Source: Bacteroidota bacterium
GTDB lineage: Bacteria; Bacteroidota; Bacteroidia; Flavobacteriales; Flavobacteriaceae
DNA: 41,717 bases
Assembly: GCA_012522045.1 (NCBI GenBank)
Contig: JAAYLC010000116.1
Coordinates: 1 to 41,717, forward strand
Reading direction: 5' to 3'
Shown here: positions 7,131 to 18,779 of the stretch, piece after piece
Position numbering within the stretch: position 1 is the stretch's first letter
Layout: each line of letters begins with the position of its first letter
Translations under genes and position numbers: made by a program
Notes under the pieces: generated by a model
What the model was told of the DNA's origin: nothing
The model's database searches: none
The model's input: the letters and a program-made list of their open reading frames with translations, nothing else

Positions 7131-7976
7131 TTACAAGGCGCCCCATTCTTGAAGCGATTTAGTATTTAAAGCGACATAATCGTCATTTTTAGCTTTTTTA
7201 GCAAGTTCCAACGATTTTTTAGCTGCGGCAATAGCTCCTTTTTTATCGCCGGCTTTCATATAAATCAGCGCCTGTTGTCTGAGTTGCCAAAACATTGGAT
7301 TTTCTGATAATTCCATCGATTTATCAATCCATTTTTTGGCTTGCTGAATGTCTTTACCGGTTTCAAAATAATAAATTGCTGCCGCATAATAATCATTTGC
7401 AGAAGGACCGTTCATCACGTTGTGAATGTTGGCCAAAACAGCTTCATCAGTTTTGAATTGCACCGGAATTCCGACATAGGTATTCACCCATCGAATCCCG
7501 ATTTTGGCAGCATCGTGAGTAATATCGTCAATAGTGATTGTAAATGTTTCTATTTCTGATGACAAATGACTGGTGGGTACATTTATATGTGCAGCTACTT
7601 TGGAATCGTCCCACTTATCCGGCAATCCCCAATTGTTCGTGTCAGAATAAAAATAAACATCCCAACTTGACACGCCCGGTTTGGTATACAACGCATAACT
7701 TCCTGCTTTTAATGTTTTTCCATTAACAATCACATCATTGCTAAATCGGATTACGGTATTGTTATTGGCTCCGGTTCTCCACATTTTATCAAAGGGTACT
7801 AAATTTCCGTAAATGTGTCTTCCTTTTGCGGAAGGTCTGGAATACTCTACAGAAACATCAGTCAAGCCTACGCGTTGTTCAATTTTTTGAAACGGGCTGG
7901 GTTGAGGCGTTGAAATTTGAGCAAACGAAATCACCCCAAATGCAAGCGCAACAGTTAATGTTAAAATTTTTTTCAT
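7131..7976 (-). CDS. exported DUF2911 domain protein with TPR-like C-terminus
   Basis: A 281-residue secreted protein. The signal peptide is clear (MKKILTLTVALAFGVISFAQ, cleavage likely before Gln20). The DUF2911 domain follows with 'VEYSRPSAKGRHIYGNLVPF' near residues 44-63 and 'WRTGANNNTVIRFSNDV' near 66-82. The C-terminal 90 residues form TPR-like helical pairs (YYFETGKDIQQAKKWIDKSM; IYMKAGDKKGAIAAAKKSLE). Abundant in Flavobacteriia; function unknown. Single-gene unit with its own promoter candidate at 8004-8011. Confidence 0.92.
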   Translation of the reverse strand: MKKILTLTVALAFGVISFAQISTPQPSPFQKIEQRVGLTDVSVEYSRPSAKGRHIYGNLVPFDKMWRTGANNNTVIRFSNDVIVNGKTLKAGSYALYTKPGVSSWDVYFYSDTNNWGLPDKWDDSKVAAHINVPTSHLSSEIETFTITIDDITHDAAKIGIRWVNTYVGIPVQFKTDEAVLANIHNVMNGPSANDYYAAAIYYFETGKDIQQAKKWIDKSMELSENPMFWQLRQQALIYMKAGDKKGAIAAAKKSLELAKKAKNDDYVALNTKSLQEWGAL

Positions 7977-15142: not shown

Positions 15143-15703
15143 ATGGATATAACCTTACCTTCCAAAGGAAAATTACTTATCGCAGAACCTTCAATTATTG
15201 GAGATATTTCCTTTAATCGCGCTGTTATTTTATTGGCGGAGTATAACGAAAATGGTTCTGTAGGGTTTATTCTCAACAAACCATTAGAATTTAAACTGAA
15301 AGATTTTATTCCTGAAGTAACTTCAGACCTTCCCGTTTATAACGGTGGTCCTGTTGAACAAGATAATTTATATTTTATTCACTGTGTCCCGGATCTTATT
15401 CCCGACAGTATAAATATTTCAGAAGGAATTTATTGGGGCGGAGATTTTGATACCATTCTCCGGCTCTTAAAAACAAACCGCCTCCAAAAAAATCACATCC
15501 GTTTTTTTCTCGGGTATTCCGGGTGGGAAAAAGATCAGCTCATTCGAGAACTTGAACTACAAACTTGGGTTGTGCAACACAATGTTTATAATGGAAACAT
15601 CATTAAAAAACCGGGATTGAATTTTTGGAAAGAAAAAATGATGGAATTGGGCGGAGATTATTCGCTCTGGTCTAATGCGCCTGAGAATCCGAATTTGAAC
15701 TAA
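15143..15703 (+). CDS. YqgE/AlgH family protein
   Basis: A 186-residue DUF179 protein: 'GKLLIAEPSIIGDISFNRAV' near residues 8-27, 'SVGFILNKPL' near 39-48, and 'YNGGPVEQDNLYFIH' near 65-79. The family is widespread, with a known fold but no firmly established activity (named from AlgH/YqgE). It converges with the class-IV aminotransferase gene, and the 3' ends overlap by 32 bases, an unusually close convergent overlap with no room for a terminator. Confidence 0.92.
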   Translation: MDITLPSKGKLLIAEPSIIGDISFNRAVILLAEYNENGSVGFILNKPLEFKLKDFIPEVTSDLPVYNGGPVEQDNLYFIHCVPDLIPDSINISEGIYWGGDFDTILRLLKTNRLQKNHIRFFLGYSGWEKDQLIRELELQTWVVQHNVYNGNIIKKPGLNFWKEKMMELGGDYSLWSNAPENPNLN

Positions 15704-16577
15704 TCAAATCAAAAGTTCTTTTATTTAATAATGTCAGTATTTCTTGAGAAACGGAAATTCCATATTCTTTTTTTCGATATTTCGTAATCGGTCGGATTCC
15801 AAAAACAACATTCGACAGAAATAACTCGTCGGCTTTTTGAAGTTCAAAAGGTGAAACAGGCCGTTCTTCCAACTTATATTCAGGGTGTGAATCAATAATT
15901 TTTATCAATTGCTTACGCATGATTCCGTTTAAACATCATTCCGATAACGGAGGCGTTGTTATGGTATCCTGATTGACCATAAACAAATTAGCATTTAAAG
16001 CTTCAATGACATTTTTAGCGTCATTCAGGACGAGACAATTTTGATATCCGTTCTCCTTGGCAAAAATGCTTCCCAATACATTTACTATTTTATTGGTTGT
16101 TTTTAAAGTAGCCAATAAATCTTTGCGTACATAAAAATCTTTGTACAATTCTACTTCAGACGGTGAAGTATCCAACTTATATTCGTTAAAGTTTACTTCC
16201 TCAGGAATAATCGCATAATCAATCATTCTTGTATCAGGATGATATTTCCCACCGGTTTTACGCCAAACGAGAATTTTGACTCGGAAGCTTTTTGAAAGGT
16301 TATCGGAAATGGTTTTATCAAGTTCAGATTTTAGATATTCCATCGTAAAATTCATCGGAATTTCCATTCTCAAAATCCGCATGGATGCCATAAGTCGGAA
16401 GTAGTGATCTTCCCAAAACAAAACCGTCCCTTTTACGACAAGCAAGGTTTCAAAAAGTGCATCGCCATAATGCAGCCCTCGATTATTTATGGAAACGAAT
16501 GCTTTGTCCGATTCTACAATTTGCCCGTTAAGATTGATTAAATTTGAATCCGTGATACGATTTGTATGTGGTTGCAT
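15672..16577 (-). pseudogene. class-IV aminotransferase (aminodeoxychorismate lyase-like), interrupted by in-frame TGA
   Basis: A fold-type IV PLP enzyme: 'NNRGLHYGDALFETLLV' near residues 31-47, Lys of 'ATLKTTNKIVNVLGSIFAKE' as the likely Schiff-base region, 'NVIEALNANLFMV' (the PLP Glu), and 'TPPLSE' just before a TGA at 15936-15938. Five codons later the same frame continues as MRKQLIKIID...PFELQKADELFLSNVVFGI, the normal C-terminal third. The expected motif is TPPLS-x-G-x-L-x-G-I-x-R, so the TGA stands at the conserved Gly (GGA to TGA, one base). Starting at ATG 16577 avoids overlap with the START-like gene. Closest role is PabC (folate) or a branched-chain/D-amino-acid aminotransferase; which one cannot be settled here. 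Confidence 0.85.
15936..15938 (-). other. in-frame TGA replacing a conserved glycine codon
   Basis: The plus strand reads tca, giving TGA on the coding strand between 'TPPLSE' and 'CLNGIMRKQL'. The flanking codons (15921-15935: C-L-N-G-I) are open and family-like, so there is no frameshift, only one nonsense codon. Confidence 0.85.
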
Positions 16578-16584
16578 AAAATTA

Positions 16585-16977
16585 TCAGGTTGAACCGAGT
16601 ACTTGGCGCAAGTTTGCAATCATATTTTCCCAGAGCATTTTTCCTTCTTCTATTTCGTCTTCATAGGCAAAATCTGTCACGATAAGAGAAACATCTTGCG
16701 TAATTTCATCAACTTGGATTCTCATTTCGAAATAGGTTTGTTCATTTTCGTCTTCTAACCAACGAAATTTGACCCGTTCCGGACTTTTTCTACTGAGCAA
16801 TTTAGCAGCTTCTTCACTTCCTTCCCAAATAAAAGAAAAGTGTTCTCCACGGGAGTTTACATTATCCGCATACCACTCCGACAAACCTGAAGGAGTCGAT
16901 AAATATTGATATAAAAGCGTTGGAGAAACTTGTAGCGGAAACTCCATTTCATACTTTATTTTTTTATCCATAAACAA
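16585..16977 (-). CDS. START-like (SRPBCC fold) domain protein
   Basis: A 130-residue protein with the helix-grip START-like pattern: 'YEMEFPLQVSPTLLYQYLST' near residues 8-27, 'GLSEWYADNV' near 31-40, 'VKFRWLEDENEQTYFEMRI' near 69-87. It resembles AHSA1/Bet-v-1-type ligand-binding or co-chaperone-like proteins; the ligand is unknown. It lies 7 bases upstream of the interrupted aminotransferase on the same strand, an arrangement typical of Flavobacteriia, and is likely its operon partner. Confidence 0.88.
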   Translation of the reverse strand: MFMDKKIKYEMEFPLQVSPTLLYQYLSTPSGLSEWYADNVNSRGEHFSFIWEGSEEAAKLLSRKSPERVKFRWLEDENEQTYFEMRIQVDEITQDVSLIVTDFAYEDEIEEGKMLWENMIANLRQVLGST

Positions 16978-17405: not shown

Positions 17406-18779
17406 TCAGCTTGATAATTTTTCTTTTAACACGTCAAAAGTCACCTCCTCTTGGGCTCCGGTTTTCATGTTTTTTAATGTATAAACTTGTTGCTTCAGCT
17501 CTTTTTCACCTGCCATCACTGTAAACGGAATATCGCGTTTATCGGCATATCCCATCTGCTTTCCGATTTTACTTTTATCGGGATAACGTTCTACCGCAAT
17601 TCCGGCATCTCGCAATTTGAGAATCGTTTTCATGGCAAAAAGAGCTTCGGCATCTCCAAAGTTGATAAACAGCGCTTTCGTTCCTTCTGAAATTGTTTCC
17701 GGAAACAATTTCACCGCTTCCATAACCAAATAAATACGATCCAAACCAAACGAAATTCCAATACCGCTCATATTCTTAAGCCCGAAAATTCCCGTTAAAT
17801 CGTCATACCTTCCTCCGCCGCCGATACTTCCCATAGAGACATTTTCCGGTGCAGCAACTTCTATAATTGTTCCTGTGTAATAATTCAATCCGCGGGCAAG
17901 GGTCACATCCAATTGTAAATTTGCTGAATGGACACCGAGATTTTCCGAAGTATGAATCACAAAAGCGACTTCTTCATATCCCTGCATTCCGATTTCGGAA
18001 TTTTGAAGTAATTCTTTTAAAACTTTCAATTGGGCTTCATTTGTACCCGACAGGGACAACAAGGGCTCTAATTTTGCAATTGAAGCATCATTAATTCCTT
18101 TTTCCAGCATTTCCTTTTTTACGCCTGCTGCGCCTATTTTATCCAATTTATCCAATGCAACCGTGAAATCTATCAACTTTTCTTCTGCTCCGATAATCTC
18201 TGCAATTCCGGTCAATATTTTTCGGTTGTTGATTTTAATGGTAACTCCTTTCAAATTTAATTCGTCGAAAACTCGTGAATACAATTGAATAAACTCCACT
18301 TCCTGCCAAAGCGATTCTGACCCGATGACATCGGCATCACACTGATAAAATTCTCTGAATCGTCCTTTTTGCGGACGATCGGCGCGCCACACCGGTTGAA
18401 TTTGATAACGCTTAAACGGAAAAACCAATTCATTTTGATGTTGTACCACATAACGGGCAAAAGGAACGGTTAAATCATAGCGCAATGCCCTATCGGAAAT
18501 TAAAGGGGTCAGTTGTTGACTGTCTTTTGTTTGATAAATTTCATCTTTAACCTTGGACAGATAATCTCCGCTATTGAGGATTTTAAAAATCAATCGGTCT
18601 CCTTCTTCTCCGTATTTTCCCATCAAGGTTTCATAATTTTCAAAAGAAGGTGTTTCTATCGGTTGAAATCCAAATAATTTAAAATTTCTTCGAATGGTTT
18701 CGATGATGTAATATCTTTTTGCAACTTCAACCGGATTAAAATCTCGTGTTCCTTTGGGTGTTGAGGGCTTCATATTCAA
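17406..18779 (-). CDS. hisS: histidyl-tRNA synthetase
   Basis: A 457-residue class II synthetase. Motif 1 region '[20 protein letters not shown]' near residues 10-29, motif 2 '[18 protein letters not shown]'-like ([20 protein letters not shown], about 129-148), the HisRS signature '[14 protein letters not shown]' near 295-308, and motif 3 '[11 protein letters not shown]' near 341-351; an anticodon-binding domain follows ([12 protein letters not shown] onward). An upstream candidate -7 element lies about 70 bases away and a tRNA-Met gene follows 115 bases downstream on the same strand. Confidence 0.96.

Follow-up and report, generated by a model that had tools for sequence, protein, structure and literature searches.

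A TGA at an invariant glycine of a PabC-like gene in a draft flavobacterial genome that carries similar in-frame stops elsewhere

Main finding

The window analysed here, a stretch of 41,717 nucleotides from a draft flavobacterial genome, contains a gene for a PabC-like, vitamin-B6-dependent class-IV aminotransferase that is interrupted by an in-frame TGA at a conserved glycine. Most likely this is a sequence error or a recent loss rather than any new mechanism, and the likeliest single reading is that the stop is false, or an unselected variant, in the draft consensus. Seen in isolation, a stop at an invariant residue seems meaningful; the same genome, however, interrupts even its sole prolyl-tRNA synthetase (ProRS) gene. 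Caution is called for: without reads, a lone stop found in this genome should not be taken as biology.

The interrupted gene and its neighbours

A TGA with one frame on both sides had been reported in the preliminary description, where the strand was left unstated. The frame is indeed continuous and lies on the minus strand, the plus-strand reading of the same region being riddled with stops. Translation gives a gene of 301 codons (16577-15675) that starts at ATG 16577, seven bases past the stop of the preceding gene, and ends at the terminal stop 15674-15672. The start is followed by 213 sense codons, the TGA (15938-15936) and 87 further codons in unchanged frame. The features concerned are the following.

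15672..16577, minus strand: interrupted PabC-like class-IV aminotransferase gene (translation; Pfam Aminotran_4, 169.7 bits across the stop; 109 orthologues)
15936..15938, minus strand: in-frame TGA, codon 214 (column Gly in 109/109 relatives)
15918..15920, minus strand: ATG proposed for reinitiation; it encodes the Met of GIMR and follows the conserved Gly-Ile (sequence; PMC3174152)
16539..16541, minus strand: TTA (Leu 13), as against Met in 108/109 relatives (relatives' alignment)
16585..16977, minus strand: START_2-domain gene directly upstream, used as rate yardstick (Pfam START_2, 137.3 bits; same locus in 107/109 relatives)
15143..15703, plus strand: convergent YqgE/AlgH-like gene that overlaps the PabC-like gene at the latter's 3' end (Pfam DUF179, 136.6 bits)

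The fold of the interrupted enzyme is clear from its translated sequence. The class-IV aminotransferase profile (PF01063) matches it well above the cut-off of 28.5 bits, over profile positions 2-222 of 223 and residues 55-280 of translation P0001 (E=1.2e-49), in which the stop is residue 228. The best NCBIfam match is the PabC equivalog model TIGR03461, whose curated cut-off of 176.85 bits is missed by the 148 bits obtained. Four intact relatives likewise remain under this cut-off with 130-140 bits, and the name is therefore limited to 'PabC-like'. The genome, checked for a second pabC or ilvE as had been suggested, yielded no second PabC-like gene; its other two class-IV members look like branched-chain aminotransferases of the ilvE type.

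The stop site in relatives

Relatives from the Flavobacteriaceae and Flavobacteriales were gathered by tblastn without any requirement at the site of the stop, yielding 109 sequences. The genome collections searched hold no close relative (best identity about 60%), and the comparison is thus made without any same-species sequence. Relatives of the gene were also sought in viral contigs, and none was found there. The preliminary description had placed the stop at a conserved glycine, and the alignment bears this out: every one of the 109 relatives has Gly in the interrupted column, encoded by GGT in 53, GGC in 24, GGA in 24 and GGG in 8. The TGA replaces the first Gly of the motif TPPLSxGCLxGIxR. 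In the set of PabC structures compared in PMC3174152, Gly199, which lies beside the phosphate of the cofactor with Arg202, is strictly conserved. Judged by its spacing, Gly199 corresponds to the second Gly of the motif, that of GIxR, located just past the stop.

Age of the lesion

The gene was constrained on both sides of the stop until very recently. The TGA is the only stop within 903 bases, which contain no frameshift either, and the downstream half was rightly described as free of further lesions, its 87 codons being open to the terminal stop. Where at least 95% of the relatives agree, the gene keeps 49 of 50 columns upstream of the stop and 21 of 22 downstream (70/72). The ratio of downstream to upstream divergence is ordinary (rank 79 of 108). 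Taken as a ratio to the corresponding value of the START_2 gene, the mean distance of the gene to its relatives is 1.538, the median being 1.533. Since the conserved columns are kept and the rate relative to START_2 is at the median, the stop is either recent or not real.

A second difference is found near the 5' end, where residue 13 is Met in 108 of the 109 relatives, apparently as start codon, and Leu (TTA) in the window. The in-frame ATG twelve codons upstream (ATG 16577) can serve as start, and the start of the gene seems to have moved there. This change, for which two bases must differ, looks like genuine divergence. An old, decaying pseudogene could account for the loss of the original start Met together with the presence of a stop. 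The expected relaxed constraint and further lesions were looked for and are absent, as seen from the intact 903 bases, the 70 conserved columns and the median rate, and such a pseudogene is accordingly very improbable.

Similar stops elsewhere in the genome

The draft genome amounts to 2.69 Mb in 247 contigs and is 93% complete. A hexamer-based scan, covering 1.11 Mb of readable sequence (the window and 140 other contigs, whole or in part), picked out in-frame stops flanked on either side by coding signal. Most of the TAA cases were plain gene boundaries. Chosen candidates were translated, every stop being written as X, and compared with Pfam; this left 13 further in-frame stops, about 12 per Mb, each inside a single Pfam domain match that runs across the stop. 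TAA, TAG and TGA are all represented, at differing residues.

L168:17505: in-frame stop in 3HCDH
L169:5138: in-frame stop in Lysine_decarbox
L219:10497: in-frame stop in 2-Hacid_dh_C
L242:8160 (G000:C188), minus strand: TAG in a Response_reg receiver domain; regulator PorX-like by eye
L147:18709-18711 (G000:C34): in-frame TAA in tRNA-synt_2b, the catalytic domain of ProRS
L242:439: in-frame stop in DJ-1_PfpI
L133:4882: in-frame stop in DUF420
L199:7419: in-frame stop in Amidohydro_2
L117:2007: in-frame stop in CarbopepD_reg_2
L168:7612: in-frame stop in DUF4835
L194:13199: in-frame stop in HisKA_3
L178:9341: in-frame stop in AAA_15
L119:2737: in-frame stop in Phage_portal

An additional case lies outside any single domain:

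L250:1255 (G000:C196), minus strand: in a SucC-like gene, a TAA that separates the two domains and is followed two residues later by a Cys that looks unusual by eye

Locus L168 (G000:C55) displays three candidate stops within its first 20 kb, namely those at 7612 and 17505 listed above and one at 18480, in a gene that is MarR-like by eye and has no Pfam match. The clustering is as if errors were grouped by contig.

The same scan was applied as a control to 0.63 Mb from the loci of the 109 relatives, an imperfectly matched sample that consists of one conserved neighbourhood from many genomes picked for matching this gene. It returned 23 candidates, of which 20 were recurrent gene boundaries by eye and the other three had no Pfam match. 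No domain-spanning stop could thus be confirmed in the 0.63 Mb of the control (p about 0.003 under equal rates). A stretch as long as the window would be expected to contain about 0.5 such stops at the rate of 13 per 1.11 Mb, so that finding one there is unremarkable.

Prolyl-tRNA synthetase is indispensable to any cell. A search for ProRS in this genome and in 25 relatives gave one copy above cut-off in each; in this genome it is the only full-length one, the other matches being weak and below cut-off. The copy is uninterrupted in 25/25 relatives, and only that of this genome contains a stop, a single TAA. Since the cell cannot do without this enzyme, the ProRS stop is very probably false.

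Explanations of the stop

The preliminary description had offered four readings: a sequence error, a recent null, UGA readthrough and a two-piece enzyme made by reinitiation. The first two survive and the last two have become unlikely.

The error reading is favoured by the many similar stops, in excess over the relatives and including one in the only ProRS gene. A long-constrained, ordinary PabC-like gene would carry one stop that is most probably absent from the living population, and that may have arisen as a base-substitution error or as a rare unselected variant that entered the draft consensus of this fragmented genome. We infer that the stop of the window belongs to the same artefact class as the other stops of the genome. 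Some of these may nevertheless be real pseudogenes; ProRS is the only one among the interrupted genes whose real loss a living cell could hardly survive. Two observations count against the error reading: the start change at residue 13, and the missing PabA and PabB, which provide a biological reason for a real null.

A genuine nonsense null of recent origin would be tolerated if the earlier steps of 4-aminobenzoate synthesis had been lost and 4-aminobenzoate or folate were taken up. This alternative is plausible, if on the doubtful side. PabA, PabB, TrpE and TrpD were sought in the genome and not found, nor was any Anth_synt_I_N domain or free-standing PabA/TrpG amidotransferase; the genome being 93% complete, with the contigs below 3 kb in the sequence covered read as N, these absences are not certain. 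The GATase matches correspond, by resemblance in open-frame length, to PyrG, GuaA and CarA, and to the interrupted DJ-1-like gene. Only one chorismate-binding enzyme was found, an isochorismate synthase; of 148 other near-complete family members, 145 show at least two such matches. With PabA and PabB not found, PabC would have no substrate; FolP is present, so 4-aminobenzoate would need an outside source. The replacement of the usual start Met also fits a null. The same sort of stop in the ProRS gene, which no cell could lose and live, speaks against it. So does G023 (L031), another near-complete family member with one chorismate-binding enzyme, whose orthologue is uninterrupted. Loss of the orthologue is therefore not a simple consequence of PabB loss, and the enzyme may have a role besides the reaction of PabC. 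With FolP and isochorismate synthase present but none of the four enzymes sought being found, the organism is a possible auxotroph for 4-aminobenzoate and tryptophan. A real null would make it a flavobacterium dependent on outside 4-aminobenzoate or folate, by ordinary pathway erosion.

That the stop is passed or bridged, through UGA readthrough, selenocysteine, recoding or reinitiation at ATG 15920, has a very small probability. The downstream half is open and conserved, and the ATG noted 15 bases past the stop is present. The 'functional event' considered in the preliminary description is nonetheless weak. The product starting at 15920 lacks the GIxR Gly that is strictly conserved in the PabC structures (PMC3174152), and the upstream fragment lacks it too, which makes a two-piece enzyme unlikely. 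Recoding of UGA finds neither loss of RF2 nor disuse of TGA: prfB scores 472 bits and has no internal stop, and TGA terminates 67 of 466 long open frames. A selenoprotein was considered and rejected, Cys or Sec never being found at this column in the 109 homologues. The interrupting stops of the genome are of all three kinds and fall on mixed residues, and no stop-reading tRNA was seen in the part read, where just ten tRNAs turned up. It is hardly credible that the stops are real and that a flavobacterium tolerates them by suppressing stop codons of all three kinds throughout its genes, so that ProRS, the PabC-like enzyme and some dozen further proteins would still be made at full length.

Comparison with known systems

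Read across the stop, the gene of the window resembles PabC in its fold-type IV motifs (FET, the catalytic Lys region and GIxR); it differs by its score below the cut-off, its interruption and the partners PabA and PabB that were not found. As in auxotrophs that have lost 4-aminobenzoate synthesis, FolP is kept in the absence of detectable PabA and PabB, but the PabC-like gene is here otherwise undegraded.

In SR1/Gracilibacteria, UGA is read as glycine. The present case recalls this code by an in-frame TGA at a Gly position of a conserved gene. The likeness ends there, and the code was rejected for this genome on the presence of RF2, the normal use of TGA as terminator and the occurrence of all three kinds of interrupting stop at varied residues.

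Searching the literature for stops in metagenome-assembled genomes brought up no paper. The spurious premature stops of draft or metagenome-derived assemblies are matched here by isolated stops of all three kinds in genes that are otherwise intact, an essential single-copy one included, the stop of the window being a probable case of this kind.
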